From contig NZ_CP012697.1 of NCBI RefSeq assembly GCF_001314225.1, positions 930,001 through 994,000 on the forward strand: a DNA stretch of 64,000 nt, read 5' to 3'. Source of the DNA: Microbacterium sp. No. 7 (GTDB taxonomy: Bacteria > Actinomycetota > Actinomycetes > Actinomycetales > Microbacteriaceae). Positions 4,560-60,039 of this stretch are shown here, one piece after another (within the stretch, counting starts at the first letter, position 1; every line of letters starts with the position of its first letter). A program made the translations under genes and the position numbers. The notes beneath the pieces are model-generated. The model was not told the origin of the DNA, made no database searches, and saw nothing but the letters and a program-made list of their open reading frames with translations.

Positions 4560-4616
4560 TCAACCGCGGCATTGTGCGGGTGTCGGAAGCGACGACCCGC
4601 ACAATGCCGCGGTTGA
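4560..4616. repeat. Intergenic inverted repeat, family TTCAACCGCGGCA
   Basis: Perfect 22-bp arms (4560-4581 and 4595-4616), beginning TCAACCGCGGCA and reading through the word TGCGGGT, with a 13-nt loop. It lies between the converging cysK-like and monooxygenase genes. Related hairpins occur at 7189, 59905 and 59981. No T-tract follows, so it is not a standard intrinsic terminator. Confidence 0.8.
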
Positions 4617-4667
4617 ACCGGCGGCGAGGTGCGCTAGGCGGTGAGGCGCGGTAGGCGGTGAGGCGCG

Positions 4668-5972
4668 CTAGGCGGCGCTGGCGGCGGATGCCGCGGACGA
4701 CAGCGTGGGGAGGCCGAGGTTCTCGCGCAGGGTGGTGCCGGGGTAGGCGTCGGGGTAGACGCCGCGCTCCTGCAGCTCGGGGACGAGGCCGTCGACGATG
4801 TCGTCGAGGCCCGACGGCACGAGGTACGGCGACACGTTGAACCCGTCGACGGCGCCCGCGTCGACGTAGCGCACGAGCAGGTCGGCGACCGTGCCGAAGC
4901 CGCCCACGATCGTGCGCCGACCGGAGTGGCGGATCACGAACTCGCGGATCGACAGGCCCTCGGCATCCGCCAGCCCGCGCCACTCGTCGGCCGTCTCCTT
5001 CGCGCGGCGGCCCTGGAACGCCGAGCCGCGCCGGCCGTCGACCTCCGCGACCGTCGGGTCGAACCGCGGCAGCGGGCCGTCGGGGTCGTGGTCGGACAGA
5101 TCGCGGCCCCAGATCGGCTCGAGGTAGCGCAGCGCGGTCTGCGGCGACACCTGGGCGTGCGTCACCCACTCCGCCTTCTCCTCGGCCTCGGCGTCGGTCG
5201 GCGCCAGGATGAACTGCTGGCCGGGGAAGAACTTGAGCGCGTCGCGGCGGCGTCCGTGGCGCGCGAGGCGCCCCCGCACGTCGGCCGCGAACGACGCCGC
5301 GTCGTCGAGGCCGGGGTGCGCCGAGAAGATGACGTCGGCGGTGGATGCCGCGAACTCGCGCCCCTCGTCGGAGTCGCCCGCCTGGAACAGCACGGGCCGC
5401 CCCTGCGGGCTCGCGGGCAGCGGCGCGGGGCCGGAGAGCGACACGAGGTCGCCGTCGACCGTCACGGGCGTGCCGGCGTCGGCATCCCACAGTCGCTGCG
5501 CCGCCGCGACGACCTGCGCCGCGCGGCGATAGCGGTCGGCGTGGTCGAGGTAGCCGCCGCGGCGGAAGTTCTCGCCCGTCCAGGCGTTGTCGGTGGTCAC
5601 GACGTTCCATCCCGCGCGCCCCTCGCTGAGCAGGTCGAGCGAGCTCAGCCGCCGCGCGAGGTCGTAGGGATCGTTGTAGGTCGTGTTCTGCGTCGCGACC
5701 AGGCCGATGCGCTCGGTGACCGCGGCGAGCGCCGCGAGCTGCGTCTGCGCGTCGGGCCGGCCGGCGATGTCGAGCTCGTGGACGCGGCCGAAGTGCTCCC
5801 GCAGGCGCAGGCCCTCGCCGAGGAAGAACGCCGAGAACAGGCCGCGCTCGGCCGTCTGCGCGATGCGGCGGAACGACTCGAAGTCGTACTGCGAGCCGCT
5901 CTCGTCGTGCGACCAGATCGTGCCGAAGTTGACGCCCTGGAAGAACACCCCAAACTGGATGCGACGGGTCAT
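4668..5972 (-). CDS. LLM-class flavin-dependent monooxygenase, NtaA/SnaA/DszA-like
   Basis: A 434-residue flavin-dependent monooxygenase of the bacterial luciferase-like superfamily, in the group that oxidises nitrilotriacetate, sulfones or similar small substrates with FMNH2 from a partner reductase. Diagnostic stretches are IQFGVFFQGVNFGTIWSH at the start, ATQNTTYNDPYDLARRLSSLDLLSEGRAGWNVVTT, FQAGDSDEGREFAA and GFNVSPYLVPSGLDD. Length matches NtaA/DszA (about 440). The ATG at 5970-5972 overlaps the stop of the preceding monooxygenase gene by ATGA. No flavin reductase gene is adjacent. The substrate is unknown; a sulfur source is suggested by the flanking genes. Confidence 0.85.
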   Translation of the reverse strand: MTRRIQFGVFFQGVNFGTIWSHDESGSQYDFESFRRIAQTAERGLFSAFFLGEGLRLREHFGRVHELDIAGRPDAQTQLAALAAVTERIGLVATQNTTYNDPYDLARRLSSLDLLSEGRAGWNVVTTDNAWTGENFRRGGYLDHADRYRRAAQVVAAAQRLWDADAGTPVTVDGDLVSLSGPAPLPASPQGRPVLFQAGDSDEGREFAASTADVIFSAHPGLDDAASFAADVRGRLARHGRRRDALKFFPGQQFILAPTDAEAEEKAEWVTHAQVSPQTALRYLEPIWGRDLSDHDPDGPLPRFDPTVAEVDGRRGSAFQGRRAKETADEWRGLADAEGLSIREFVIRHSGRRTIVGGFGTVADLLVRYVDAGAVDGFNVSPYLVPSGLDDIVDGLVPELQERGVYPDAYPGTTLRENLGLPTLSSAASAASAA

Positions 5973-7030
5973 GCGGCGCTCCCCTCCTGTGCCGTGTAGC
6001 GGTTCTGCGGACGCGCGAGACCGAGCGTCTCGCGCAGGGTCGCGCCGGGGCGCGGCGATGCGAAGCCGATCGTGCGGCGCAGCGGGGGCAGCAGCGCGCG
6101 GCCCAGCTCCTCGAGGTCGACGTCGACCTCGGCGGGCAGCAGGCGGATGCCGTCGACCTCGGCCGACAGGCGCGTGACGAGCGCCGCGAGTCCCGCGGCG
6201 TCGCCGACGTGGCGCAGCCGGCCGGTGCGGTCCCATGCGCGGATCGCGTCGAGGGCGCGCACGCGCTCGGCCGCCGGCACGCCGCGCGCGTCGAGCGCGA
6301 CCTCGATCTCGGCCCACACGAGCGCCGCGCCGCGCCCGCGGGCGTCGCGCGCGGCGGAGGCCGTGGCATCCTCGTCGGCGCCGGAGACGAGCGCCACGTC
6401 GGCACCGGCATCCGTGCCGTGCGCGAGCACGGGCAGCTGCCCCTGCGGCGGACGCGGCGTGATGAGCGGGCCCTTCACGGAGTATCCGCGGCCGGCGAAG
6501 TCGACGTAGTGCAGCCGGTCGGCGTCGAGGTAGCGGCCGGTCGGCACGTCGCGGATCACGGCGTCGTCCTGCCATGAGTCCCACAGCCGGCGGGCGACCT
6601 CGATCGCGTCGACGAGCTCGTTCGCGACCTCGTCGGGCGTGCGCACGGGGGCGCCGAACGCGGCCGCCTCGCGCGGCGACGAGGACGCCGCGGCGATCCA
6701 GCCGGCGCGCCCCTGCGAGAGCCAGTCGAGGCTCGCGAGCTGCGTCGTCACGTGGAACGGCTCGCTGTGGACGACGTGCGCGACGGGGATGAGACCCAGG
6801 CCGCCCGTGTGCGGGGCGACGAAGGCGGCGCGCTGCACGGCGTCGAGCCGGGCCGGTCCGTCGAGCACGGGCGCGTCGGCGAACGTCGCCGCCGTGAGCC
6901 CGAGCGCCTCGGCGATGCGGGCCAGCGCCGCCCAGCGGCGCGGCGAGAGCGGATCGGACGCGGGGCGCGCGCCGGGGTGCGATCCGGCGCCGTCGAGCTC
7001 GACCGCGATCGCGAAGGGATGACGTGACAT
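5969..7030 (-). CDS. LLM-class flavin-dependent oxidoreductase, reduced paralogue
   Basis: A 353-residue luciferase-like protein encoded immediately before the NtaA-like enzyme and translationally coupled to it (ATGA). The N-terminal half keeps family features: SEPFHVTTQLASLDWLSQGRAGWIAAA corresponds to the conserved LASLDxLSxGRxGW block. The C-terminal half is shorter and poorly conserved, and the sequence GGDSD-type loop is replaced by LAHGTDAGADVALVSGAD. The final region FASPRPGATLRETLGLARP resembles the C-terminus of its neighbour (TTLRENLGLP), so the two may be old duplicates. I start at the ATG at 7028-7030 (MSRHPFAIAVELD); an upstream in-frame start would add poorly coding residues. 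Confidence 0.75.
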   Translation of the reverse strand: MSRHPFAIAVELDGAGSHPGARPASDPLSPRRWAALARIAEALGLTAATFADAPVLDGPARLDAVQRAAFVAPHTGGLGLIPVAHVVHSEPFHVTTQLASLDWLSQGRAGWIAAASSSPREAAAFGAPVRTPDEVANELVDAIEVARRLWDSWQDDAVIRDVPTGRYLDADRLHYVDFAGRGYSVKGPLITPRPPQGQLPVLAHGTDAGADVALVSGADEDATASAARDARGRGAALVWAEIEVALDARGVPAAERVRALDAIRAWDRTGRLRHVGDAAGLAALVTRLSAEVDGIRLLPAEVDVDLEELGRALLPPLRRTIGFASPRPGATLRETLGLARPQNRYTAQEGSAA

Positions 7031-7188
7031 GCCGCCACGGTAGATCGGCTCGCGCGCGGCGGCGACCTGTGCGACGCCGCATTCCACGGTGTGACGGGGT
7101 ATGACCGCCCCGCGCGCACCGCCCCCCGCGAATCCCTAGCGTCGTGCCTGCCGGCTCGCGCCCAGCTTGCCCCCCACAGCTTCAGGGC

Positions 7189-7247
7189 TTCAACCGCGGC
7201 AAACGGCGGCTTCGCGGAGCGATGACTCGCACAGTGCCGCGGTTGAA
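7189..7247. repeat. Intergenic inverted repeat, family TTCAACCGCGGCA
   Basis: Outer arms TTCAACCGCGGCA (7189-7201) and TGCCGCGGTTGAA (7235-7247) are perfect over 13 bp; the inner part has drifted. It is in the divergent gap between a monooxygenase gene and a GNAT gene. Confidence 0.75.
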
Positions 7248-7301
7248 CGTGTTCAGCGGAGCCAGCGAAACCCCGAGGAAGAGACCTCCAGGAAGAAGAG
7301 G

Positions 7302-7853
7302 ATGCCAGTGAGCGGTGTGGACAGTCGGGTCGCGCTCGTCGTGCGCACGGCGACGCCCGAGGAGCACGACCGGGTCGGCGAGCTGACCTTTCGCGGGTTC
7401 GGGCACGACGAGACCTCCCGGCCCGATCCCGCGCGCGAGGCGCTGCTGCGCGACGCCGCGGCGCGTGCCGCCGAGGGCGACCTGCTCGTCGCGGCCGACG
7501 GCGCCACGGGCGCGCTCGTCGGCACCGCGAGCCTGCTGCGCCCGGGCAGCCGCCTGAACCGCCAGGCGCGGGACGGCGAGGCCGAGCTGCGGCTGCTCGC
7601 CGTGCTGCCGCACGCGCGCCGCTCGGGCGCCGGATGGGCGCTCATGACCGAGGCGATCGCGCGGGCGCGCGCGTGGGGCGTGCCCGCGCTCGTGCTCGAC
7701 ACGGGCCCGACGAACCATGCCTCGCAGCGGCTCTACGACCGGCTCGGCTTCGTGCGCGTGCCCGAGCGCGAGACGCAGCCCGCCCTGCGCGGCGGGTTCC
7801 TCGCGGTCTTCCGGCATGACCTGGGCGCGATCGACGCCGGAGGCGCCTCGTGA
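7302..7853 (+). CDS. GNAT-family N-acetyltransferase
   Basis: A 183-residue acetyltransferase. The acetyl-CoA site is visible as ELRLLAVLPHARRSGAGWALMTEAIARA (the R/Q-x-x-G-x-G/A loop of motif A), followed by LDTGPTNHASQRLYDRLGFVRVPERE, which is motif B with the usual Tyr-x-x-x-GF end. The ATG at 7302 follows an AGGAAGAAGAGG ribosome site; a GTG two codons later is possible. Its stop overlaps the start of the next gene (GTGA), so it is co-expressed with the luciferase-like oxidoreductase. The acceptor substrate is unknown. Confidence 0.85.
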   Translation: MPVSGVDSRVALVVRTATPEEHDRVGELTFRGFGHDETSRPDPAREALLRDAAARAAEGDLLVAADGATGALVGTASLLRPGSRLNRQARDGEAELRLLAVLPHARRSGAGWALMTEAIARARAWGVPALVLDTGPTNHASQRLYDRLGFVRVPERETQPALRGGFLAVFRHDLGAIDAGGAS

Positions 7854-8953
7854 CCCGCGTCCCCCTGTCGGTGCTCGACCTCTCGCCGTTCGGCACCGGG
7901 TCGACGCCCGCCGACGGCCTGCGCGCCACGATCGCGCTCGCCGTCGAGACCGAGCGGCTGGGGTACCGGCGGTTCTGGCTCGCCGAGCACCACTTCAACC
8001 CCGGCGTCGCGGGCGCCGCGCCGCACACGCTGCTCGCGGCGATCGGAGCCGCCACCACCGGCATCCGCCTCGGCACGGCCGCGACGATCATCGGCAACTA
8101 CGCGCCGGTGCAGGTCGCGGAGGCGTTCGGCGTGCTCGCCGCGCTCTTCCCCGGCCGCCTCGACCTCGGCATCGGCCGTTCCGGCGCCCCCGGCGCGGCG
8201 TCGACGCCGGCGGAGGCCGAGCCGGAGGTCGGAGACCGCGTCGTCGACGGCCTGCTGCTGCCGGCGCCGCGCCCCTTCGTCATCGATCCCGAGCGGTTCG
8301 CGCTGCGCTCCCGGCTGCTGCGGCGCAGCGACGGCGACGCCGACCGGTTCGCCGACGACGTCGCCGACATCCTCGCGTTCTTCGCGGGCACGTTCGTCGC
8401 CGAGGGCGAGCCGGTGCACGCGACGCCCGCGGGCGCCGCCGACCCCGAGGTGTGGATCCACGGCTCGACGGCGGGACCGAGCGCGCGGCTCGCGGGGGAG
8501 CGCGGGCTGCCATTCGGCGCGAACTACCACGTGTCGCCCGGACGGGTGCTCGACGCGCTCGCCGAGTACCGCGCGAGCTTCCGGCCGGGCCGGATCGCGG
8601 CGCCGCACACGATCGTCTCGGTCGACGTGCTGGTCGGCGAGACCGACGCCGAGGCCGAGCGGCTCGCCGCGGGCTTCGACCGATGGGTGCACAGCATCCG
8701 CTCGGGCGCCGGCGCGATCGTCTATCCCTCGCCCGACGAGGCCCGCGCCCGCCCGCTCGACGCGGCGACGCGCGAGAGCGTGCGCGACCGCGTCGACACG
8801 CGCTTCGTGGGGTCGCCGCAGACCGTCGTCGAGCGACTGCAGACGCTGCAGCGGGTCACCGGCGCCGACGAGCTGCTGGTCACGACGATCACGCACGATC
8901 CCGCCGACCGCGAGCGCTCCTACGGGCTGCTGGCCGCGGCGTGGGGGCTCTGA
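7850..8953 (+). CDS. LLM-class flavin-dependent oxidoreductase (MsnO8-like)
   Basis: A 367-residue luciferase-like flavin oxidoreductase. The start VPLSVLDLSPFGTGSTPADGL followed by ETERLGYRRFWLAEHHFNPGVAGAAP is the hallmark of the single-chain LLM group, where the AEHH segment lines the flavin pocket. LGTAATIIGNYAPVQVAEAFGVLAALFPGRLDLGIGRSG continues the barrel, and FVGSPQTVVERLQTL is near the C-terminus. It begins with GTG in a GTGA overlap with the acetyltransferase. It is the third LLM protein within 4 kb, which supports a locus for oxidative attack on small organic molecules. Confidence 0.85.
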   Translation: MTRVPLSVLDLSPFGTGSTPADGLRATIALAVETERLGYRRFWLAEHHFNPGVAGAAPHTLLAAIGAATTGIRLGTAATIIGNYAPVQVAEAFGVLAALFPGRLDLGIGRSGAPGAASTPAEAEPEVGDRVVDGLLLPAPRPFVIDPERFALRSRLLRRSDGDADRFADDVADILAFFAGTFVAEGEPVHATPAGAADPEVWIHGSTAGPSARLAGERGLPFGANYHVSPGRVLDALAEYRASFRPGRIAAPHTIVSVDVLVGETDAEAERLAAGFDRWVHSIRSGAGAIVYPSPDEARARPLDAATRESVRDRVDTRFVGSPQTVVERLQTLQRVTGADELLVTTITHDPADRERSYGLLAAAWGL

Positions 8954-9001
8954 CCCGCGTCGCGGCCTTCGGCGGGTCGGCGGGCTCGCCGAGGGGCCGT
9001 T

Positions 9002-9081
9002 CGTTCCCGAGGAGATCTCGCGTTCCCGAGGAGGGATGCCCGGCGCGCCGGCCCTCGGGAACGCTCTGCGCCTCGGGAAGG
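9002..9081. repeat. Inverted array with core CGTTCCCGAGG, period 18-19 nt
   Basis: Forward cores start at 9002 and 9021 (19 nt apart). Reverse cores CCTCGGGAA start at about 9053 and 9071. The array lies between a plus-strand gene end and the minus-strand tRNA-like gene, that is, in a converging gap. It is a small version of the arrays at 14.5 and 24.3 kb. Confidence 0.65.
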
Positions 9082-9150
9082 CCGGGCCCTTTCAGGCAAG
9101 GCCGGGCCTCACGGACGGATCGTCTCTTGCAGGCGGTGCTCGTCCTGACG

Positions 9151-9226
9151 TGGACGCGACGGCGGGAGTCGAACCCGCAACGCAACCGGTTATGAGCCGG
9201 TGCCCGGGACCGCCCGGATCGCCGCG
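9151..9226 (-). tRNA. tRNA-Met-like gene, anticodon CAT, atypical
   Basis: Read on the minus strand: acceptor 5' arm CGCGGCG pairs with CGTCGCG (one G-U), the anticodon arm is ACCGG-CTCATAA-CCGGT with anticodon CAT, and the T arm is GCGGG-TTCGACT-CCCGC. CCA is encoded, total 76 nt. Odd points: the discriminator base is T, positions 8-9 read AT instead of the usual T-purine, and the D arm is CCGG with a 6-nt loop. It could be a divergent elongator Met or Ile-CAT tRNA, or a degenerating copy. Confidence 0.65.
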
Positions 9227-9310
9227 ATGTCCCCCACGCTAGCCCGGATCGCGCACGTGCGACCTGAGTGTGTCCTATGAAGTCGGGATGTGACGAAAGG
9301 AGCGCCCGCG

Positions 9311-9703
9311 TCAGCCTGCGAAGGCGCCGTCGCGGGTCGAGACGATCTCCTTGCCGAGGGGCATGAGCGAGATCGGAACCATCTTGAAGTCGGCGATCGC
9401 CATCGGGATGCCGATGATCGTGAGGCACAGCGCGATGCCCGACAGGATGTGCCCGAGCGCGAGCCACCAGCCCGCGAGGATCACCCACACGACGTTGCCG
9501 AGGAACGAGCCGACGCCGGCCGTCGGCTTGGGCACGATCGTGCGGCCGAACGGCCAGATCACGTAGTTCGCGGTGCGGAACGACGCGACCGCCCACGGGA
9601 TCGTGATGATCGGGATGCACAGCAGCACGCCCGCCAGGACGTAGCCGAGGAACAGCCAGAACCCGGCGAAGATGATCCAGATGATGTTGAGCAGCGTGCG
9701 CAT
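9311..9703 (-). CDS. yccF: YccF domain-containing membrane protein
   Basis: A 130-residue inner-membrane protein of the YccF family (function unknown). It has the family's two internal repeats, NIIWIIFAGFWLFLGYVLAGVLLCIPIITIPWAVASFR and NVVWVILAGWWLALGHILSGIALCLTIIGIPMAIADFK, each carrying a tryptophan-rich helix pair, and the linker GRTIVPKP. A -10-like GACAAT lies 5 nt upstream of the ATG at 9701-9703, so the mRNA may be leaderless. The gene stands alone. Confidence 0.9.
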   Translation of the reverse strand: MRTLLNIIWIIFAGFWLFLGYVLAGVLLCIPIITIPWAVASFRTANYVIWPFGRTIVPKPTAGVGSFLGNVVWVILAGWWLALGHILSGIALCLTIIGIPMAIADFKMVPISLMPLGKEIVSTRDGAFAG

Positions 9704-9729
9704 GCCTCATTGTCCCGCGCCGAGCTTCG

Positions 9730-9766
9730 AGAAGGGTGGATGCCGCGGCGCCGGCATCCACCTTCT
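9730..9766. repeat. Hairpin with GGATGCC/GGCATCC arms
   Basis: AGAAGGGTGGATGCCG (9730-9745) pairs with CGGCATCCACCTTCT (9752-9766) with a single bulged G. The 335-bp gap 9704-10038 otherwise holds short GGCGTTCG-type repeats (about 9811-9868) and the GTTCACAATTCAGGA hairpin, and no gene. The same GGTGGATGCCG hairpin word recurs at 11657-11692 inside a coding region. Confidence 0.6.
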
Positions 9767-9865
9767 GACTCTTCTCGGTTCTTCTCGGTCCTCGGGTTCT
9801 GGCGGTCTGCGGTTCGGGCGTTCGCGGGCTCGGGCGTTCGGGTTCGGCCGTTCGGGGGTCCGGCC

Positions 9866-9962
9866 GTTCACAATTCAGGAGATCCGGTCGTACGCTGCCG
9901 GTCGGGCCGCGGGATTCCGCGGACCGACGCCGCCGGTCCCGCAGATCTCCTGAATTGTGAAC
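9866..9962. repeat. Intergenic inverted repeat, family GTTCACAATTCAGGA
   Basis: Perfect 18-bp arms GTTCACAATTCAGGAGAT (9866-9883) and ATCTCCTGAATTGTGAAC (9945-9962) around a 61-nt GC-rich centre. Two more members lie at 42082 and 42237. The arms are AT-rich compared with the surroundings, so the element stands out in composition. Confidence 0.85.
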
Positions 9963-10038
9963 AGCGGAGGCGGCGCGGGACGGCGTTGCATGCCGGGGCG
10001 GCGGACACCCCGGGCGCTGGGGTCAGCGGATGCCGGGG

Positions 10039-10632
10039 TCAGCGGATGCCGGGGGCGCGGCGCGCGGCGAGGTGCTTCTGGGCGCGGCGGGCGAGGCCGA
10101 CGAGGCCCGTCACGAGCACGAGGCCGCCGACCACGAGCAGGCCGTAGGCGGTGAGGCTCACGGGCTCGACCTGCTGCACCCATTCGCTCAGCCGGTCGAT
10201 GGGGCGCGGCGCGTTCGCGAGCGCGAGGCCCGCGGCGGCGAGCACCGCGAAGACGAGGCCCCAGATGATGGCGGCCCAGCGTGTGCGGGGCCGCGAGAGC
10301 TCCGTCGCCGGCGCGGCGCCGTCGGCCGTGACCGTGGCATCCGGCATGATCCCGGCATACGACGTGACGGTGCCGTTCGGCATGAGGGTATCGTTCGGTG
10401 CGACCGTGGCGCGCGGGGCGGCGGCGATGTCGTGATCGACAACGACGGCGGTGCCGAGATCGAGGGTCTCTGCGTCATGACCGGCCGTGACGGCATCGGT
10501 GAGGTCGAGGGTCTCGGCCTGGTCCCGGTCGTCCGGCACGGTGGCGGCGAGCTCCCGGGTCTCGGCGTCGTCGCGGTCGTCGGGCGTGTGCGGACCCGTG
10601 TCGTCGGTCGCCGGCGGCTGGTCTGTCGTCAT
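10039..10632 (-). CDS. Hypothetical membrane protein with acidic AET-L repeats
   Basis: A 197-residue protein not assigned to a family. The N-terminal 110 residues are acidic and Thr/Asp-rich with three copies of an AETxxL word (AETRELA, AETLDLT, AETLDLG). Two hydrophobic segments follow (WAAIIWGLVFAVLAAAGLAL and TAYGLLVVGGLVLVTGLVGLA), ending in a basic tail (RRAQKHLAARRAP). It overlaps the PspC gene by ATGA and so belongs to the same operon; a role in envelope stress is suggested only by that context. Confidence 0.7.
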   Translation of the reverse strand: MTTDQPPATDDTGPHTPDDRDDAETRELAATVPDDRDQAETLDLTDAVTAGHDAETLDLGTAVVVDHDIAAAPRATVAPNDTLMPNGTVTSYAGIMPDATVTADGAAPATELSRPRTRWAAIIWGLVFAVLAAAGLALANAPRPIDRLSEWVQQVEPVSLTAYGLLVVGGLVLVTGLVGLARRAQKHLAARRAPGIR

Positions 10633-12320: not shown

Positions 12321-12434
12321 GCATCGATCCTCGCGGAGGGCTCCGACATCTCGCGATGGGGTGGCACCCTGAGCCGACCCTGATTCTGCGCGGGCGGGAT
12401 GCCGCGTGTCGGAGGCGGGTGATTGGATGGCGGC

Positions 12435-14455: not shown

Positions 14456-14492
14456 CCCTCGGCGGCCCACCCTCGGCGCGCCCCTCTCCCCG

Positions 14493-14762
14493 CGAGGGTG
14501 CCAGTTGTCTTCCCGAGGGTGCTCCTTGTTCTCGCGAGGGTGCCAGTTGTTCTCGCGAGGGTGCCAGTCGTTCTCCCGAGGGTGCTCCTTGTTCTCGCGA
14601 GGGTGCTCTGCATCTTGGCGAGGAGCTGTCGTCGGTCGCGCTGAGAAGGCGCTCCCATCGAGACAATCAGCACCCTCGACGAGACAATCAGCACCCTCGC
14701 GAAGATAACCAGCACCCTCGCGGAGATAACCAGCACCCTCGCGGAGATAACCAGCACCCCGG
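14493..14762. repeat. Inverted array with core CGAGGGTGC, exact 21-nt period
   Basis: Six forward units CGAGGGTGC plus a variable TTGTTCTCG-like half start at 14493, 14514, 14535, 14556, 14577 and 14598. After a 60-nt centre, five reverse units GCACCCTCG begin at 14670, 14691, 14712, 14733 and 14754, also every 21 nt. The whole would fold as a long hairpin with alternating conserved and variable 10-mers. It fills most of the 373-bp gap between the response regulator and the ligD gene. Confidence 0.9.
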
Positions 14763-14816
14763 GGAGGCGAAGCCGCTGGGCGCGGCGCCCCACTGGTGGT
14801 GCGTCATACGGCGAAG

Positions 14817-14822
14817 TAGCGT
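14817..14822 (+). promoter_or_regulatory. -10 box of ligD, leaderless
   Basis: TAGCGT followed by 6 nt and the ATG at 14829. Transcription would start at or next to the ATG. Confidence 0.5.
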
Positions 14823-14828
14823 CGGGGC

Positions 14829-15857: not shown

Positions 15858-15907
15858 CGCCGGCCACGGCGGAGAGGAGGCGCGGAGGCCGTGTCGGAGC
15901 CCGGGCC

Positions 15908-15913: not shown

Positions 15914-15922
15914 TGACGGGTC

Positions 15923-24340: not shown

Positions 24341-24527
24341 CGCCGAGATGGTGCCCTTCTCGCCGAGATGGTGCCTTCTACGCCGAGATGGTGGGATTGT
24401 CGCCGACATGGTGCCCACCGTCTCGACGGAAAAGACACCGTCTCGGCGACAATCCCACCATCTCGATGAGGGAGCCGCCGGCTCGGGAGGAAGCCACCGT
24501 CTCGGCAACGACCCCACCGTCTCGGCG
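24341..24527. repeat. Inverted array with core CGAGATGGTG, exact 20-nt period
   Basis: Four forward units CGCCGAGATGGTG start at 24341, 24361, 24381 and 24401. Reverse units CACC(G/A)TCTCG start at 24416, 24436, 24456 and, after a gap, 24495 and 24515. The period is 20 nt throughout each run. The segments 24384-24406 and 24440-24462 are perfect 23-nt complements. It fills the converging gap between the acyl-CoA dehydrogenase and TetR genes. Confidence 0.9.
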
Positions 24528-24571
24528 AGGAACGCGCCGTGTGGGGGAGGGGGCCGCCCGGGGGCGGGGCG

Positions 24572-27489: not shown

Positions 27490-27533
27490 AAGGCCGGGGG
27501 ACGGATGCCACGTGGCATCCGTCCCCCGGCCTT
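27490..27533 (+). terminator. Terminator hairpin of sucCD
   Basis: A perfect 20-bp stem (27490-27509 with 27514-27533) with the loop ACGT. The stem includes GGATGCC/GGCATCC next to the loop, and both arms begin or end with AAGGCC/GGCCTT. Only TTAT follows, so it may work with help from Rho or in both directions. Confidence 0.85.
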
Positions 27534-27576
27534 ATCACGTCGTGCCACACACCGCCGGTCCACCACGCAGAACCGC

Positions 27577-27664
27577 GAGAGTGCACGTGGCGGCCGAGAC
27601 TGCATGTGCGGCCCGCATTCTCGGCCGCCGTATGCATTCTCGGCGACCGTATGCATTCTCGGCG
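27577..27664. repeat. Inverted array with core GCATTCTCGGC, exact 19-nt period
   Basis: Forward units GAGAGTGCAC and GAGACTGCAT start at 27577 and 27596. Reverse units GCATTCTCGGC start at 27615, 27634 and 27653. All spacings are 19 nt. It lies in the converging gap between sucD and the siderophore-interacting protein gene, just after the sucD terminator. Confidence 0.85.
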
Positions 27665-27701
27665 GGCGCCCGGGGGCTGACCGGGGGTGGGGATGCGGGG
27701 G

Positions 27702-42081: not shown

Positions 42082-42164
42082 CACCGTTCACAATTCAGGA
42101 GATCCGGTGCGTGAGGCCCGGTTCGCGGGCCCGCACCGCGGTTCTTCCTGAGTTGTGAACGGTG
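42082..42164. repeat. Intergenic inverted repeat, family GTTCACAATTCAGGA
   Basis: Arms CACCGTTCACAATTCAGGA (42082-42100) and TCCTGAGTTGTGAACGGTG (42146-42164) match at 18 of 19 positions. The 386-bp gap 42008-42393 between purH and the Ada-AlkA gene holds this element and a second copy 150 bp further on, and no gene. Confidence 0.85.
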
Positions 42165-42236: not shown

Positions 42237-42311
42237 GTTCACAACTCAGGAGATCCGGCCCCGGGGAGCCGGTTCGCGGGCCTGCCGCGCGGCTCTTCCT
42301 GAGTTGTGAAC
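42237..42311. repeat. Intergenic inverted repeat, family GTTCACAATTCAGGA (second copy)
   Basis: Arms GTTCACAACTCAGGA (42237-42251) and TCCTGAGTTGTGAAC (42297-42311), perfect over 15 bp. The compensating change (AATTC to AACTC with GAATT to GAGTT on the other arm) shows that pairing is maintained. Confidence 0.85.
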
Positions 42312-42393
42312 GGTGGGAGGGGTGGGGAGCGGCGGCGGTGCCGTGTCCGATTTCCGCCAGCCGACCGGCCGGGGGCGTGCGAGAGTGGATGCC

Positions 42394-48700: not shown

Positions 48701-48748
48701 CAGCGGCGGGGCTTCGATGGGGGAGGGCGATTCGAAACCCCGCCGCTG
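48701..48748. terminator. Bidirectional terminator between the ABC exporter and a GNAT gene
   Basis: CAGCGGCGGGG (48701-48711) pairs with CCCCGCCGCTG (48738-48748), with TTCGA-type bases able to pair further inside. It lies between converging genes. Confidence 0.7.
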
Positions 48749-48762
48749 GTCTGGATGCGAGG

Positions 48763-49215: not shown

Positions 49216-49278
49216 GCTCCCTAGGGTAGCGGTCAGGCCGGGTCGAGGATGCTATGAGTGCAGGGTCCGCCGGTCGAG

Positions 49279-49298
49279 TTATCTCGATGTCGAGATAA
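49279..49298. promoter_or_regulatory. Perfect 20-bp palindrome upstream of icd
   Basis: TTATCTCGATGTCGAGATAA: 9-bp arms around a 2-nt centre, AT-rich in a GC-rich gap. It lies 20 nt upstream of the probable -10 TAGGCT (49318-49323), so a protein bound here would cover the -35 region. The regulator is not recognised; the form would suit a MarR-, GntR- or TetR-like dimer. Confidence 0.7.
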
Positions 49299-49362
49299 AT
49301 GCGGAGCATACACATAGTAGGCTGGGGCTGAGCCCCACAACGCCGATACGGAGAACTCCCAC

Positions 49363-51582: not shown

Positions 51583-51600
51583 CGGGGCTCCACCCCCGCT

Positions 51601-52010
51601 GGTCAGGGAGTGCGCGGTGGTGCCCGTGCATCGTGCGTCCCTCTCCCCGCTGGTTGAGTAGCGCGCGGAGCGCGCGTATCGAAACCCATGTAACGGACCG
51701 TTACGCGGGTTTCGATACGCGGCCTGCGGCCGCTACTCAACCAGCGGGGGGTGTGGGCCCGATCAGCGGGGGGTGTGGCCGATCAGTGGGGTGCATCCCT
51801 CTCTCCGTTGGTCGGGGAGTGCGCGGTGGTGCGCGTGCATCGTGCATCCCCTCTTCCCGCTGGTTGAGTAGCGCGCGGAGCGCGCGTATCGAAACCCGTC
51901 TCACGGTCCGTTACATGGGTTTCGATACGCGGCCTGCGGCCGCTACTCAACCAGCGGGGGTGTGCGGCCGATCGGCCGGGGGTGTGGCGTCAACCAGCCG
52001 GGGCGTGCGG
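51601..52010. repeat. Tandem duplication of about 209 bp, each unit with a GCTGGTTGAGTAGC hairpin
   Basis: The 447-bp gap 51583-52029 between converging icd and the L,D-transpeptidase gene consists of two near copies 209 bp apart (starting at about 51601 and 51810). Each contains a near-100-bp inverted repeat: CCCGCTGGTTGAGTAGCG, then CGTATCGAAACCC, a short centre, GGGTTTCGATACG and CGCTACTCAACCAGCGGG (51646-51750 and 51857-51959). The centres differ (ATGTAACGGACCGTTACG and GTCTCACGGTCCGTTACAT). I see no gene here. Confidence 0.88.
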
Positions 52011-52029
52011 CCGACCAGCGGGGCGCGGG

Positions 52030-53496: not shown

Positions 53497-53679
53497 AGCC
53501 CCAACTCCCGACCGATGGTCATACAGGTTCCCATGATACGCGACGGGGTTTTTTCCTGTCCGGGTGATCGCTGAGTGGCCTGGAAGAGGCATGCGCCGTC
53601 GGTAACGTTTTTGTAAAGACACCTTGCAAATGGGGCGGATGGGTTGCGGGCAGGTAATTCGTAAGGTCTACTAACAAAC

Positions 53680-54816: not shown

Positions 54817-54867
54817 CGCCGCCCCGCATCCCAGACCCCCTGCAACAGGCAACAGAAAGAGGAAACC

Positions 54868-56160
54868 ATGAACAAGAAGCTCGGAGCCCTCGCGCTTCTC
54901 GGCGCCTCGGCGATCGCGCTCGCCGGCTGCGGCGGCGGCTCGACCGGATCGACGGGCGGCGACGGCGGGGACGCGACGGGAGACGCCGGCGGCGCCGAGA
55001 TCCGCGTCTGGCTCGTCGGCACCGACACGCCGCAGGACGCCCGCGACTACCTCAAGAAGACGTTCGAGGACGAGAACCCCGGCTCGACGCTCGTCATCGA
55101 GGAGCAGCAGTGGACCGGCCTCGTCGACAAGCTCACGACGAGCCTCTCGTCGAACGACAGCCCCGACATCGTCGAGATGGGCAACACCCAGGCCGCCGCG
55201 TTCACCTCGGCCGGCGCGCTCGCCGACCTCAGCGACATCCAGGACGCCCTCGGCGGCGACGACCTGCTGCCCGGCTTCGTCGAGGCCGGCACGTGGGACG
55301 GCACGCTGTTCGCCGCCCCCTACTACTCGGGCGCGCGCGTCGTGTTCTACAACACGGCGCAGTACGAGCAGGCCGGCGTCGCCGTGCCCACGACGCTCGA
55401 CGAGTACGTCGCGAACGGCGTGGCCCTGGCCGAGAAGCTCCCCGGCGTCTCGGGCGTCTACTGGCCCGGCAAGGACTGGTACAACGCCCTCCCGTTCATC
55501 TGGGAGAACGGCGGCGAGGTCGCCGTGCTCGACGGCGACACGTGGGACGCGCAGCTGTCGAGCGACGCGTCGCTCGCCGGTCTCGCGCAGGTGCAGGAGC
55601 TCATGACGAAGGCGTCGCTCGCCGCCAAGGACGGCGACGAGACCGAGGCGTGGGTGCCCTTCCGCACCGAGAAGGCCGCGACGCTGTCGGTGCCCAGCTG
55701 GGCGTACTGGTCGATCGTCGCCGACGAGGACCAGAAGGAGACCGCGCTGACGAACAGCCTCGGCTACTTCGCGCTGCCCGGCGCCGACGGCGGCGCCGCG
55801 CAGGTGTTCGCGGGCGGCTCGAACATCGGCGTCGCGGCGAAGTCGCAGAACGTCGAGCTCGCCAAGAAGGCGCTCGAGATCATCCTCAGCGACGAGTACC
55901 AGACGATCCTCGCCGAGAACGGCCTCGTGCCGGCGAAGACCTCGCTCGGCGACCAGGTCGCCGCCGCTACGCCCGAGCTGGCCGCCGTCATCGCGGAGGC
56001 CGCGGCGAACGCCAAGCTCACGCCGGCGTCGCCGAAGTGGGCGGACGTCGAGGCGCAGGGCCTGCTGCAGGACTTCTTCGTCAAGATCGCGAACGGCGGC
56101 GACGTGAAGGCGCTCGCCGTCGAGCTCGACGAGAAGATCGAGTCGATCCTCAACGGCTGA
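54868..56160 (+). CDS. Sugar ABC transporter substrate-binding lipoprotein
   Basis: A 430-residue lipoprotein of the MalE/DasA-like class. The signal MNKKLGALALLGASAIALAGCGGGS ends in a lipobox Cys, followed by a Gly/Ser/Thr/Asp-rich linker. The mature part shows AEIRVWLVGTDTPQDARDYLKKTFEDENPGSTLVIEEQQWTGLVDKLTTSLSSNDSPDIVEMGNTQ, the binding-protein N-lobe, and SVPSWAYWSIVADEDQKE. It probably binds N-acetylglucosamine or chitobiose, judged from the downstream ROK kinase and NagB. A hairpin after it may reduce expression of the downstream permease genes. Confidence 0.9.
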   Translation: MNKKLGALALLGASAIALAGCGGGSTGSTGGDGGDATGDAGGAEIRVWLVGTDTPQDARDYLKKTFEDENPGSTLVIEEQQWTGLVDKLTTSLSSNDSPDIVEMGNTQAAAFTSAGALADLSDIQDALGGDDLLPGFVEAGTWDGTLFAAPYYSGARVVFYNTAQYEQAGVAVPTTLDEYVANGVALAEKLPGVSGVYWPGKDWYNALPFIWENGGEVAVLDGDTWDAQLSSDASLAGLAQVQELMTKASLAAKDGDETEAWVPFRTEKAATLSVPSWAYWSIVADEDQKETALTNSLGYFALPGADGGAAQVFAGGSNIGVAAKSQNVELAKKALEIILSDEYQTILAENGLVPAKTSLGDQVAAATPELAAVIAEAAANAKLTPASPKWADVEAQGLLQDFFVKIANGGDVKALAVELDEKIESILNG

Positions 56161-56168
56161 CCCCGCTC

Positions 56169-56198
56169 CCGGGGGCGCCGGCCCGACGGCGCCCCCGG
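56169..56198 (+). terminator. Stem-loop between binding-protein and permease genes (attenuating)
   Basis: CCGGGGGCGCCG (56169-56180) pairs with CGGCGCCCCCGG (56187-56198) around a 6-nt loop; no T-tract follows. Such hairpins after ABC binding-protein genes commonly stabilise the upstream mRNA and lower read-through. Confidence 0.6.
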
Positions 56199-56237
56199 TC
56201 ACCCGATCCCACGCACCTCTCGGAAAGGAGCCGGTCC

Positions 56238-57194
56238 GTGACGACGACCGTCCCCGCGCCGGCTTCGGCCGCTGCGCCCCCTCCGGCATCCGCCCCCGCG
56301 CGCCGGCGCCGCCCCAGCGGCACGCCCTTCGCGCTGCTGGCCCCCGCGGTCATCATGCTCGCCGTCTTCATCGGCTGGCCGCTGCTGCAGCTCGTGATCA
56401 TGTCGTTCCAGAAGTTCGGCCGCGAGCAGATCTTCGGGGCGCCGCCCGAGTTCGTCTTCCTCGACAACTACCTGCGCGTGCTCACCGACCCGCAGTTCTG
56501 GGTCGTGCTCGGCCGCAGCGTCGCACTGTGCGTCGTGTGCGTCGCGGCGACGATGCTGCTCGGCATCCTCATCGCCGTCATGATGACCAAGCTCGGCGCC
56601 GTCATGCGCACCGCCGTCTCGGTGGGCCTGCTGCTCGCCTGGGCGATGCCCGCGCTGACCGGAACGATCGTCTGGGGCTGGATCTTCGACACCCAGAACG
56701 GCCTCGTCAACTACTTCCTCACCCGGATCACCGGCGTCGACTTCATCGGCCACAGCTGGCTCATCGACCCGCTGAGCTTCTTCAGCGTCGCCGCCGTCAT
56801 CATCACGTGGGGCGCCGTGCCGTTCGTCGCGTTCTCGGTGTACGCGGGCCTCGGCCAGGTGCCCGCCGAGGTGCTGGAGGCGGCGTCGCTCGACGGCGCG
56901 GGCGGCCTCAAGCGCTTCCGGCTCGTCGTGATGCCCTACATCCGCTCCATCCTGATCGTGCTGCTGATCCTGCAGATCATCTGGGACCTGCGCGTGTTCG
57001 CGCAGATCTACGCGCTGCAGACGATCGGCGGCGTGCGCGAGCAGACCAACACGATCGGCGTCTACATCTACAGCGTCTCGATGGCGTCGGGCGATCTCGG
57101 CGCGGGCGGCGCGATCGCCGTCATCCTCGTCGTGATCCTGCTGCTCATCGCGTCGTACTACATCCGCACCATGCTCAAGGAGGACGAGCAGTGA
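56238..57194 (+). CDS. Sugar ABC transporter permease, MalF-type
   Basis: A 318-residue permease with an Ala/Pro/Arg-rich N-terminus and six membrane helices. The EAA loop is EVLEAASLDGAGGLKRFRLVVMPYIRSILIV, where the ATPase docks. AFLLAP-type start FALLAPAVIMLAVFIGWPLLQLVIMSF is typical of MalF-like sugar permeases. The start is GTG at 56238 after AAGGAG. It overlaps the MalG-type permease by GTGA. Confidence 0.92.
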   Translation: MTTTVPAPASAAAPPPASAPARRRRPSGTPFALLAPAVIMLAVFIGWPLLQLVIMSFQKFGREQIFGAPPEFVFLDNYLRVLTDPQFWVVLGRSVALCVVCVAATMLLGILIAVMMTKLGAVMRTAVSVGLLLAWAMPALTGTIVWGWIFDTQNGLVNYFLTRITGVDFIGHSWLIDPLSFFSVAAVIITWGAVPFVAFSVYAGLGQVPAEVLEAASLDGAGGLKRFRLVVMPYIRSILIVLLILQIIWDLRVFAQIYALQTIGGVREQTNTIGVYIYSVSMASGDLGAGGAIAVILVVILLLIASYYIRTMLKEDEQ

Positions 57195-58033
57195 ACGCGC
57201 GCCCCCGCACGCTGCCTCGCCGGGTGCTGCTGAACGTCGCGGCGCTCGTCGTGATCGTCTGCTCGGCCTTCCCCGTGTACTGGATGGTCAACACGGCGCT
57301 GCTGCCGGGCTCGGCCATCGGCAGCGAGACGCCGCACCTGTGGCCCGACCAGTTCACGCTGCGCAGCTTCGAGCTCGCGATCACCGACCCCGGCTTCCTG
57401 CCGGCGCTCGGCATGTCGCTCGCGGTCACGGTGCTCACGGTCGTCACGGCGCTGCTGTTCGCGTTCGTGGCATCCATCGCGGTCTCGCGCTACCGGTTCC
57501 GCTCGCGCAAGGCGTTCATCATCGCGATCCTCGTGATCCAGATGATCCCCGCCGAGGCGATGATCATCTCCACGTTCCGCGTTCTCGACGGCTGGCACCT
57601 GCTCAACTCGATCGTCGGCCTCGGCGCCGTGTACATCGCGATGGTGCTGCCGTTCACGATCTGGACGCTGCGCGGCTTCGTGAACGGCGTGCCCGCCGAT
57701 CTCGAAGAGGCGGCGATGATCGACGGCTGCAGCCGGTCGGGCGCGTTCTGGCGCGTGACGTTCCCGCTGCTCGCGCCGGGGCTGGTCGCGACGGGCATCT
57801 TCGGCTTCATCCAGGCGTGGAACGAGTTCGTGTTCGCGCTCGTGATCATGACGCGGCCCGAGGCGCGCACGCTGCCGATCTGGCTGCAGAGCTTCGTGCA
57901 GGCGACCAAGGCGACCGACTGGGCCGTGGTGATGGCGGGCTCGACGCTCATGGCCATCCCCGTGATCGTGTTCTTCCTGTTCGTGCAGGGCCGCATGACG
58001 GGCGGCCTCGTCTCGGGAGCGGTGAAGGGCTGA
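57191..58033 (+). CDS. Sugar ABC transporter permease, MalG-type
   Basis: A 280-residue permease, partner of the MalF-type subunit. Conserved MalG features: AFPVYWMVNTALLPGSAIGS, SIAVSRYRFRSRKAFIIAILVIQMIPAEAMIISTFRVL, the EAA loop VPADLEEAAMIDGCSRSGAFWRVTFPLLAPGLVATGIFGFIQAWNEFVFALV. The cluster encodes no ATPase, so a shared MsiK-type ATPase elsewhere is expected to energise it. Confidence 0.93.
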   Translation: MNARPRTLPRRVLLNVAALVVIVCSAFPVYWMVNTALLPGSAIGSETPHLWPDQFTLRSFELAITDPGFLPALGMSLAVTVLTVVTALLFAFVASIAVSRYRFRSRKAFIIAILVIQMIPAEAMIISTFRVLDGWHLLNSIVGLGAVYIAMVLPFTIWTLRGFVNGVPADLEEAAMIDGCSRSGAFWRVTFPLLAPGLVATGIFGFIQAWNEFVFALVIMTRPEARTLPIWLQSFVQATKATDWAVVMAGSTLMAIPVIVFFLFVQGRMTGGLVSGAVKG

Positions 58034-58034
58034 C

Positions 58035-59063
58035 ATGCACCTCGGATTCGACGTCGGCGGAACCAAGACCGACGCGGTGGCCGCCCTGCCCTCGGGCGAG
58101 ATCGTCGCCCGCGCCCGACGGGCGACCGGCTGGGGAGCGGATGCCGTCGTCGCGACGATCGTCGCGCTGTCGGCGGAGCTCGCGACGGCCGCCGGATGCC
58201 GCGTGGACGAGGTCTCGTCGGTCGGCGTCGGCATGCCCGGCCAGGTCGCCCCGGGGTCGGCGGTCGTCACGCACGCCGTGAACCTGGGCGTCGACCGGCT
58301 CGACGTCGCCGCCGCGCTGGCGGCGCACGTGCCGGCCCCGGTGCGCGCGGAGAACGATGTGAAGGCGGCGGCGGTGGGCGCCGCGGCGCTGCGGACGCGG
58401 GGCCGCGCGGGCGGCGGCACGGACGCCGCGGGCTTCGCGGGCGGCGCGGATGCCGCGGTCGATGCGGGCGGCGAGGATGCCGCGGATGTCGCGGTCCATG
58501 CGGCCGGCCGCGCGACGATGGCGTATCTCAACCTCGGCACGGGCATCGCGGCGGGCATCGTGCGTGACGGCGCGCTCTGGCGCGGGGCGCACGGCACGGC
58601 GGGCGAGGTCGGCCACATCTCGGTGGACCCCGGCGGTCCCGAGTGCCGGTGCGGCCAGCGGGGCTGCATCGAGGCGTTCGCCGGCGGCGGGGCGGTCGCC
58701 CGGCGCTGGGGGCGCAGCGGTGCGCTGCCCGTGCGCGACGTGTTCGACGCCGCCGACGCGGGCGACGCGGCCGCCGTCGCGCTGCGCGACGACGTCGCCT
58801 ACGGCGTCGCGGCGGCCGTGCGCGTGCTCGTGCTGACGCTCGACGCCGACGAGGTCGTGATCGGGGGAGGACTCACGGCCCTCGGTGACCGTATGCTGGG
58901 CCGCGTGGTGGACCAGCTGAGCGCCGCGGACGCGGCATCCCCGTTCCTGCGGTCGCTGCGGCTGGCCGATCGCATCCACCTGCTGCCGCCGGGCTCGCCG
59001 GCGGCAGCGCTCGGAGCGGCGCTCATCGGCGCCCGACACCAGGAGGTCCTCGTTCATGGCTGA
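58035..59063 (+). CDS. ROK-family sugar kinase, probable N-acetylglucosamine kinase
   Basis: A 342-residue ROK kinase expected to phosphorylate imported amino sugar. Phosphate loop FDVGGTKTDA (residues 5-14), catalytic Asp D108 in RAENDVKAAAVG, second glycine motif YLNLGTGIAAGIVRDG, and zinc motif GEVGHISVDPGGPECRCGQRGCIEAFA. An insertion of about 40 residues (120-160), rich in Gly, Ala and Asp and built on a repeated GADAAVDAGGEDAADVA word, separates the two lobes; in the DNA it contains several GGATGCCGCGG words. It starts 1 bp after the permease stop and overlaps nagB. Confidence 0.88.
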   Translation: MHLGFDVGGTKTDAVAALPSGEIVARARRATGWGADAVVATIVALSAELATAAGCRVDEVSSVGVGMPGQVAPGSAVVTHAVNLGVDRLDVAAALAAHVPAPVRAENDVKAAAVGAAALRTRGRAGGGTDAAGFAGGADAAVDAGGEDAADVAVHAAGRATMAYLNLGTGIAAGIVRDGALWRGAHGTAGEVGHISVDPGGPECRCGQRGCIEAFAGGGAVARRWGRSGALPVRDVFDAADAGDAAAVALRDDVAYGVAAAVRVLVLTLDADEVVIGGGLTALGDRMLGRVVDQLSAADAASPFLRSLRLADRIHLLPPGSPAAALGAALIGARHQEVLVHG

Positions 59064-59835
59064 GGTCATCATCGTCCCGACGTCCGACGAGGCCGGCGCG
59101 CTCGTCGCCGACGAGATCGTGCGTCTCATCGCCGCACGGCCCGACGCGGTGCTGGGGCTCGCGACGGGCTCGACGCCGCTGCCCGTCTACCAGGCGCTGC
59201 GCTCGCGGGTCGGGGGCGTCGACGTGTCGCGCGTGCGGGGCTTCGCGCTCGACGAGTACGTGGGCATCGACCCCGCGCACCCGCAGAGCTACCGCTCGGT
59301 GATCACCCGCGAGGTCGTCGAGCCGCTGGGGCTCGACCCCGCGCTCATCCGCACGCCGAACGGCGCGCTGGAGACGATCGAGCACGCGGGCGACGACTAC
59401 GAGCACGCCATCGCCGCGGCCGGGGGCGTCGACCTGCAGATCCTCGGCATCGGCACGTCGGGGCACATCGGGTTCAACGAGCCGGGCTCGTCGTTCGCGT
59501 CGCGCACGCGCGTGAAGACGCTCATCGAGCAGACCCGTCAGGACAACGCGCGGTTCTTCGACTCGATCGACGACGTGCCGCTGCACTGCATCACGCAGGG
59601 TCTCGGCACGATCCTCGACGCGCGGCACCTCTTCCTGCTCGCGTTCGGCGAGAACAAGGCCGCGGCGATCGCCGGCGCCGTCGAGGGACCCGTCACCGCG
59701 TCGCTGCCGGGCTCCGCGATCCAGCTGCACCCGCACGTGACGGTCGTCGTCGACGAGGCCGCCGCGTCGCAGCTGCAGCACGCCGACTACTACCGCTACG
59801 TCCTCGCCCACAAGCCCGCCTGGCAGGGCCTGTAG
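59056..59835 (+). CDS. nagB: Glucosamine-6-phosphate deaminase
   Basis: A 259-residue enzyme converting glucosamine-6-phosphate to fructose-6-phosphate and ammonia. LGLATGSTPLPVYQAL (phosphate loop), FALDEYVGIDPAHPQSYR (catalytic Asp), QILGIGTSGHIGFNEPGSSFASRTRV and HCITQGLGTILDARHLFLLAFGENKAAAI are present. Length is typical. It overlaps the kinase gene by 8 bp. No NagA deacetylase is encoded in the cluster, so it must be elsewhere if GlcNAc is the substrate. Confidence 0.95.
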   Translation: MAEVIIVPTSDEAGALVADEIVRLIAARPDAVLGLATGSTPLPVYQALRSRVGGVDVSRVRGFALDEYVGIDPAHPQSYRSVITREVVEPLGLDPALIRTPNGALETIEHAGDDYEHAIAAAGGVDLQILGIGTSGHIGFNEPGSSFASRTRVKTLIEQTRQDNARFFDSIDDVPLHCITQGLGTILDARHLFLLAFGENKAAAIAGAVEGPVTASLPGSAIQLHPHVTVVVDEAAASQLQHADYYRYVLAHKPAWQGL

Positions 59836-59904
59836 CCCGCCCTGGCTGTCTCTGGTTGGCTCTGGCCGTCCCTGATTGGCCTGGTCGCCCCTGGTTGCTC
59901 CCTG

Positions 59905-59967
59905 GCTTCAACCGCGGCAGATTGCGGGTCGCGCACGCTGAGACCCGCAATCTGCCGCGGTTGAAGC
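59905..59967. repeat. Intergenic inverted repeat, family TTCAACCGCGGCA (perfect 26-bp arms)
   Basis: The arms at 59905-59930 and 59942-59967 are perfect complements over 26 bp, starting GCTTCAACCGCGGCA, loop 11 nt. It is in the converging gap between nagB and the NUDIX gene. Irregular CTGG-rich repeats (59842-59904) precede it. Confidence 0.88.
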
Positions 59968-59980
59968 GAAGCCTGTGAGA

Positions 59981-60039
59981 TTCGACCGCGGCATCCTGCG
60001 GGTGGCGAGGGGCTGAACCCGCCGTTTGCCGCGGTTGAA
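59981..60039. repeat. Intergenic inverted repeat, family TTCAACCGCGGCA (diverged)
   Basis: TTCGACCGCGGCA (59981-59993) and TGCCGCGGTTGAA (60027-60039), with inner CTGCGGGT and AACCCGCC parts also pairing. It stands 14 bp after the perfect copy, so the two form a tandem pair of hairpins. Confidence 0.75.

Follow-up and report, generated by a model that had tools for sequence, protein, structure and literature searches.

Introduction

In high-GC actinobacteria, I-shaped (U-tract-less) terminators consist of a GC-rich stem near stop codons, without a T-tract, and work in both directions. How transcripts end without U-tracts in these bacteria, above all between converging genes, is to our knowledge poorly known. 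DNA uptake words are spread singly, inside genes too, and the ends of multi-site transposons (Tn7/Tn5053 type) carry sites of ~19-22 bp as direct repeats, the two ends being inverted. Here we describe intergenic arrays in a 64,000-nt stretch of Microbacterium sp. No. 7, called the window below (C1:930001-994000 of a 4.83-Mb, three-contig genome; 73.3% GC within the stretch), in which a short word is repeated first forward and then in reverse orientation. Repetitive extragenic palindromes (REPs) and the hairpins formed by REP doublets (REPINs) offer a close comparison. In REPINs, conserved words stand inverted around a pairing centre of constrained length that shows compensatory change (PMC3116915), REPs carry a GTAG or CGTC tetranucleotide as a tag at one palindrome end (PMC3733652), and a survey of REP-like sequences gives counts for three Actinomycetota, so that such sequences are not new to the phylum as such (PMC12306157).

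Titles and abstract openings of the open-access literature yielded no description of such arrays, which does not prove their absence from print. We hold it to be an even call that they are bidirectional hairpin elements of gene 3' ends, dispersed in the genus Microbacterium, and we infer a role in termination or message stabilisation. As such they form a defined, countable set of candidate two-way transcript ends with clear predictions.

Results

Arrays and hairpins are genome-wide families

The window was analysed together with 40 further stretches of this genome, spaced out and 20 kb each (L009-L048); the total was 864 kb with 462 intergenic gaps (84 convergent, 266 co-directional and 112 divergent). 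Genes were called with our own codon-usage script, which gets some starts and small genes wrong. Arrays were detected as 10-mers with one mismatch at a spacing of 15-26 in the first 900 nt of each gap, a threshold that misses arrays that are shorter or more decayed, and two shuffles per gap served as control for hairpins and arrays. Hairpins scoring at least 16 were found in 34/84 convergent, 24/266 co-directional and 6/112 divergent gaps, and in none of the 462 gaps once shuffled. Arrays with at least four units, at least two of them reverse, occupied 9/84, 9/266 and 2/112 gaps of the three classes; the shuffle expectation for any array of at least four units was 0.0, 0.2 and 0.2. Convergent gaps were enriched in arrays (9/84 vs 11/378, P 0.004). 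Arrays and hairpins are genome-wide families, beyond chance. A preliminary description of the window had proposed one architecture with varying words, and this is real: it is almost never produced by shuffling, it is enriched in convergent gaps and it recurs in the genus. The hairpins and the four forward/reverse arrays lie where that description placed them (Table 1), with the periods of 21, 20, 19 and 18-19 nt that it gave. By our gene calls, six of the ten gaps concerned are convergent, three co-directional and one divergent, which agrees with the claim that most lie between converging genes.

Five array families recur, and word, period and centre length are particular to each: alpha (CGAGGGTGC, period 21), beta (CGAGAYGGTG, 20), gamma (CGAGANTGCA, 19), delta (CGTTCCCGAG, 18-19) and epsilon (CCGAGTCAA, 19). 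CGAG is present in all five words. The core words of the four window arrays had been called unrelated, which is wrong for this window, as all four contain CGAG and each marks a recurring family. Exact pattern matching over the whole genome returned 249 alpha, 33 beta and 30 gamma pairs, and a reversed control pattern returned none. The hairpins of the sample form the families F1, F2, F3 and F6; in the window, F1 is found at 4.56, 7.19 and 59.9-60.0 kb, F2 at 9.87, 42.1 and 42.2 kb and F3 at 51.6-52.0 kb. A family word was present in 46 of the 82 gaps with an array or a hairpin score of at least 14. Most of the other 36 look like ordinary unique hairpins, three carry F6, and two look like decayed copies, L014 of F3 and L033 of F1.

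Array geometry is exact. Among same-orientation neighbours no more than 80 nt apart, the spacing is 21 nt in 141/159 alpha pairs (42 or 63 nt in 15 of the remaining 18), 19 nt in 25/26 gamma and 4/4 epsilon pairs, 20 nt in 20/23 beta pairs and 18 or 19 nt in 8/12 delta pairs. Facing neighbours always converge, with no divergent neighbour units in the five families. Centre length was counted in arrays whose two arms both have a second unit. It is 9 nt in 13/13 gamma arrays of this genome and, in other species, 9 nt in 10/13 and 10 nt in 3/13 (one of 14 loci meant as other species, L237, belongs to this genome). Epsilon centres are 24 nt long in 5/5 arrays and unrelated in sequence, beta centres 2 or 3 nt in 18/21, and alpha centres 8 or 19 nt in 19/24, some longer ones looking like 19 nt plus decayed units. 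With ~19-22 bp sites as direct repeats and two inverted ends, the arrays resemble Tn7/Tn5053-type ends; unlike these, they lack internal cargo and their spacers vary between copies.

Exact spacing and fixed centre length also fit protein-DNA geometry. The arrays could be sites at which a sequence-specific protein binds the DNA (nucleoid, supercoiling or polar roadblock), with at least two sites per arm at fixed helical spacing. All four positions retain one and the same word while the spacers drift, which would favour such sites, as would the two main alpha centre sizes, which lie 11 nt apart. We nevertheless consider them rather unlikely: periods of 19, 20 and 21 nt are not one helical repeat, the gamma covariation reported below shows that pairing matters, and the one candidate protein looked for was PF01797. 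The two alpha sizes, moreover, may be two lineages linked by one deletion; the 11-nt difference was first read as a helical turn, but this explains it equally well.

The gamma, epsilon and F1-F3 words are nearly restricted to gaps, and the alpha, beta and delta words occur in genes as well. In the 864 kb, three gamma words were counted 3, 0 and 0 times in genes vs 12, 12 and 6 times in gaps, and the epsilon word once vs 14 times. The alpha word was found 44 times in genes (expectation 22.4), within the range of 1-55 for scrambled words. Two beta words occurred 10 and 18 times in called genes vs 1.3 and 3.2 expected from base composition, and scrambles of the first gave 0-4 in all; codon usage is one possibility for this excess. 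Neisseria terminators that contain DNA uptake sequences likewise have a species-specific word, inverted pairs and a position at gene ends (PMC3630211). Uptake words of 9-12 nt that double as inverted-pair terminators would account for these likenesses and for the beta excess. Unlike the Neisseria words, those of gamma and epsilon are rare in genes, and neither they nor the alpha word are scattered singly in genes far above expectation; the beta words are above expectation there but reach only the few copies given above. We regard this explanation as very improbable.

Arrays lie at gene ends

Arrays usually start a few to ~60 nt past a stop codon, and they often take up almost the whole gap. 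Alpha arrays were read from the sampled stretches and from sites among the first ~100 of the 249 pair matches. This gave 31 rows, one a cut duplicate, and hence 30 arrays; both flanks were called in 29 rows, 14 of them convergent, 12 co-directional and 3 divergent. The convergent excess (14/29 vs 84/462 gaps) has a P of 2e-4. Convergent alpha arrays often run almost from stop to stop (margins to the two stops of, for example, 10/10, 4/13, 17/19, 20/17, 15/9 and 9/16 nt), which leaves little space for another terminator. One co-directional row (369551) lies inside a called gene. Eight of the other 11 are closer to the upstream stop than to the downstream start; two (171393 and 1281553) are not, and one (1589561) overlaps a called start. 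The largest alpha array read, C1:1281553-1282181 (L319 5554-6182), has 11 forward and 14 reverse units over ~630 bp. At C1:369551 (L015 9551-9706), eight forward alpha units lie within the called coding sequence 8091-10478 on the + strand; 21 nt equal seven codons, so the alpha word is also a coding tandem repeat there.

Gamma-type elements of other species (n=37, some mutually orthologous) are distributed similarly, with 19 in convergent, 13 in co-directional and 4 in divergent gaps and one of unassigned orientation. None of the 37 lies inside a called gene, and nine sit in convergent gaps no more than 18 nt from either stop. In six relatives, hairpins were found in 19/96 convergent, 12/377 co-directional and 0/145 divergent gaps. 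The placement is that of REPs and of REPINs or bacterial interspersed mosaic elements (REP-BIMEs), intergenic and mainly convergent or co-directional, with one alpha repeat inside a called gene (PMC3116915, PMC3733652).

The arrays share with intrinsic terminators the GC-rich hairpin soon after the stop codon and lack a classical U-tract past the stem: the 16-nt flanks of alpha arrays hold no run of four T. The claim that few elements have a T-tract was scored on these alpha flanks and is borne out there. A GC-rich stem without a T-tract, a few to tens of nt past the stop, is also what I-shaped terminators have. Unlike these, which are single unrepeated stems of unique sequence, the present elements are repeat families with iterated arms. 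By analogy, array placement behaves like that of two-way U-tract-less terminators.

The gamma stem pairs across arms, and alpha arms grow by duplication

The folding energies of 25 folded alpha arrays are far below those of shuffles (z -6.5 to -18.4). In 13 gamma arrays of this genome, the spacers of facing arms pair at 7.92 of 9 positions vs 5.40 across arrays (permutation p 0.0002). We then aligned the 29-bp stem of 25 gamma-type elements, 14 from this genome and 11 from others, which have 2+2 units with conserved words and diverged spacers. In this alignment 88.1% of cells are paired vs 78.6% after shuffling, and 73 double-change cells are seen vs 30.3 in shuffles, a number that 0/500 shuffles reach. 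The gamma stem shows strong compensatory change. The gamma centre is thus length-constrained, hairpin-forming and accompanied by compensatory changes, as in REPINs (PMC3116915).

In alpha, spacers of the same arm are alike at 8.27 (forward) and 9.13 (reverse) of 12 positions, vs 6.9 for other arrays. Units of one arm resemble each other, and the arms therefore grow separately via tandem duplication. Arm-to-arm copying was rejected, as the spacers of facing arms are no more alike than those of different arrays. Of the proposal that one copying mechanism acts on different seeds, the local tandem growth of alpha arms survives and the copying of one arm from the other does not. That alpha units are more alike within an arm than between arms or arrays would also be expected if arrays were by-products of hairpin terminators and replication slippage, the word itself having no role. 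We find this improbable: gamma-type elements and the arrays of relatives keep 2+2 words with diverged spacers, which slippage alone does not maintain.

The architecture recurs in the genus with other words

Six genomes of the genus were scanned de novo for arrays, 200 kb of each (G001-G034 are reported as members of the genus). Arrays with two forward and two reverse units were found in three of the six, all at 18-19 nt, with the word GAGTGCACGG in G004, GCCGAGACCC in G021, and GGTTTGGGGC and, twice, CATAAACGCG in G007. The same design is therefore present, with other words, in half of the sampled relatives. We also compared the gap downstream of sucD. The set of 37 loci comprised 30 of 43 sucD matches and 7 from a search for relatives of a window protein, whose best named relatives are Microbacterium genomes at 70-79% identity. 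Five of these 7, without a sucD end (L049, L052, L055, L056 and L057), were dropped, which left 32; L051 and L347 among them probably come from one genome. The best hairpin begins 6-26 nt past the stop in 25/32 loci. Arrays are present in 4/32, in four genomes and with four different words: gamma in this genome, CGAGCCGCYACGAA in L053, CGAG(A/G)YCACA in L350 and CTGCATGA in L333. Likewise, the gap downstream of an acyl-CoA dehydrogenase gene holds beta in this window and CGCCGASACCCC at a period of 19 in M. esteraromaticum (L057).

The same geometry with a different word points to a recognition factor or copying process outside the known REP transposases. Two intact word copies per arm at 19 nt are kept across species while the spacers drift. 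Unlike in REPINs, the gamma word was not found outside the genus, its word pair being absent from all 128 genomes of other genera (130 family genomes examined). Alpha words occur in 14/295 genus genomes, this one included. We rejected the matches in other species as the same arrays, since five of the seven loci read have a single orientation near the match; in L229 a distance of ~360-380 nt separates forward from reverse copies, and L227 carries three reverse copies and a single forward one. Relative to these seven loci, forward/reverse alpha arrays of the present kind were seen in this genome only. In L221, L224 and L229 (around 1500), the alpha word forms one-orientation 21-nt tandem repeats, apparently within coding sequence.

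Arrays are inherited in place and border gene modules

Two sister-like genomes, G108 and G313, whose aligned flanks are ~89-96% alike, allowed a comparison site by site. An array is present in both, with both flanks aligned, at L368/L361, L374/L377, L378/L381 and L365/L385; three of the eight G108 sites (L365, L368 and L374) are shared in this way, L378 being a further G313 site. At the G108 sites L359, L362 and L371, the array and one flank or both are common with G313 loci. Arrays are inherited in place at several sites of these genomes, and a comparison for empty sites found filled sites on both sides; no near-identical pair of strains with an empty site turned up. In one gap (L376 2530-2748 vs L380 1388-1584), G313 has a gamma-type array where G108 has an imperfect hairpin of 29 bp, different from it.

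In this genome pair, arrays also border gene-module gain or loss. The G108 copies L359 and L362 look alike by eye over ~79 bp. They enclose 7.4 kb missing from G313, where a single array (L358) lies at the junction. Conversely, 4.3 kb of G313 is bracketed by arrays L367 and L370 and missing from G108, which has a single array (L371) at the junction. In the module parts that were read, the genes encode an aldehyde dehydrogenase, a copper amine oxidase, a TetR regulator, a 5'-nucleotidase domain and one protein that has no Pfam match; none encodes a recombinase. Both cases can be explained by homologous recombination between arrays alone.

These findings bear on mobility. The arrays share with REPINs and REP-BIMEs short intergenic palindromes, dispersed families and conserved inverted words (PMC3116915, PMC3733652). 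Their inverted words might be ends read by a mobilising enzyme other than a REP-associated tyrosine transposase (RAYT), with gene ends as harmless insertion spots. For this speak the fixed centre and gamma compensatory pairing as in REPINs (PMC3116915), the genus-restricted and patchy gamma word, and array copies in G108 and G313 that are ~80-95% alike in BLAST over ~50-100 bp and stand at both borders of the two modules. Against it, the copies of this genome mostly have unrelated spacers and centres, as recent copies of a single element would not, several G108/G313 sites hold an array in both genomes, and recombination explains the modules. No Y1 (RAYT) transposase (PF01797) was found in 39 genus genomes including this one, and a control search found the family in 5/14 named genomes; we reject RAYT-mobilised REPs on this basis. 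Such mobile palindromes are a tentative possibility, though a doubtful one. Unlike REPINs, the present arrays iterate the word 2-14 times per arm at 18-21 nt. Unlike REPs, most words here have CGAG and not a GTAG or CGTC tag (PMC3733652); by eye, CGAG stands at the start of a word or further in, and some words are without it. The arrays are REPIN-like in anatomy, and membership among REPs or REPINs fails on transposase and tag.

Two-way 3'-end elements as a proposed explanation

The basic element is ~67-80 bp long, with a 9-10 nt word twice, a centre of fixed length and the word twice inverted, and families vary in word, period and centre length. Near stop codons, mostly between converging genes, the transcript of either strand could fold into a similar GC-rich, U-tract-free stem, which may act as a terminator in both directions (I-shaped) or stabilise the 3' end. 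Alpha has expanded in this genome by tandem duplication of the 21-nt unit in each arm, up to the 2-14 units per arm of the arrays counted. Among the three options offered before (dsRNA-forming 3' ends, nucleoid or supercoiling sites, and one copying mechanism), the first is best supported.

Several observations weigh against this reading. Pairing is not conserved throughout: within vs across arrays, alpha spacers pair no better (8.19 vs 8.87, permutation p 0.997), nor do those of beta (8.05 vs 7.91, p 0.25) or epsilon (8.0 vs 7.6, p 0.20), and covariation in 28 elements with a 10-nt loop, mostly from G108, G313 and G179, is not above shuffles (84.1 vs 83.7%). A REPIN-type pairing centre is present in the 25 gamma sequences with a 9-nt loop, and the compensating stem changes proposed earlier hold for these and for none of the other sets. 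To form a hairpin, besides, no arm has to repeat its word and the loop need not be of fixed length; protein recognition fits both features better. By the gene calls, divergent gaps hold three alpha arrays, which end 19-69 nt ahead of a called start, and four gamma-type elements. The sucD gap and L365/L385 each contain an ordinary hairpin as well, so the array is not the sole terminator there. Arrays are missing from many convergent gaps and from the 200 kb scanned in each of G013, G031 and G005, and the gamma word pair occurs in only 21/295 genus genomes, this one included.

We take the REPIN-like mobility and protein-site readings as serious rivals of the terminator one, and the three are not mutually exclusive. 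We tentatively suggest, while thinking it doubtful, a genus-wide, RAYT-free REPIN-like system in which a fast-evolving, sequence-specific factor would read a species-specific word, needed twice per arm at 19 nt, and the folded 3'-end stem would end both transcripts and mark module borders.

Features of the window

Table 1. Positions of arrays, hairpins and palindromes, counted from the first nucleotide of the window
Feature	Position	Strand	Context
F1 family hairpin, 22-bp perfect	4560..4616	.	convergent gap
F1 family hairpin, weak, 13-bp arms	7189..7247	.	divergent gap
Delta array, CGTTCCCGAG, 2 forward + 2 reverse, period 18-19	9002..9081	.	convergent gap
F2 family hairpin (GTTCACAATTCAGGAGATC)	9863..9965	.	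co-directional gap
Alpha array, CGAGGGTGC, 6 forward then 4 reverse, period 21	14487..14765	.	++ gene pair
Beta array, CGAGA(T/C)GGTG, 4 forward then reverse, period 20	24341..24533	.	convergent gap
Palindrome, ordinary, separate from arrays; 22-nt arms, without spacer	27490..27533	.	13 nt past sucD stop
Gamma array, CGAGANTGCA, 2 forward, 9-nt centre, 3 reverse, period 19	27576..27671	.	convergent gap
F2 family hairpin	42082..42164	.	co-directional gap
F2 family hairpin, second copy, 85% to copy at 42082..42164	42237..42316	.	
Two F3 palindromes (GGTTGAGTAGC..GGTTTCGATACG) + flanking CAGCGGGG tandem units	51639..52029	.	convergent gap
Two F1 family hairpins, at 59905-59967 and 59981-60039	59905..60039	.	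convergent gap

No Rfam element matched the window at the gathering score. The first unit of the alpha array lies 37 nt past the upstream stop, and a partial fifth reverse unit was seen by eye. The beta array is flanked by acyl-CoA dehydrogenase and TetR genes, and the sucD gene lies upstream of the gap that holds the gamma array. The F3 pair at 51639-51960 consists of two 112-nt copies, 94% alike, with starts 210 nt apart. Across 51596-52025, the flanking tandem units are 21-22 nt long, and the F3 end word is also repeated outward in L024 and L009; F3 may be a further iterated-word family. A 17-nt tandem repeat of 3.3 copies (4620-4675) adjoins the 4.56-kb hairpin. At the right edge of the window, 62669-63585 holds long compound tandem repeats with units of 12-72 nt, probably low-complexity coding sequence.

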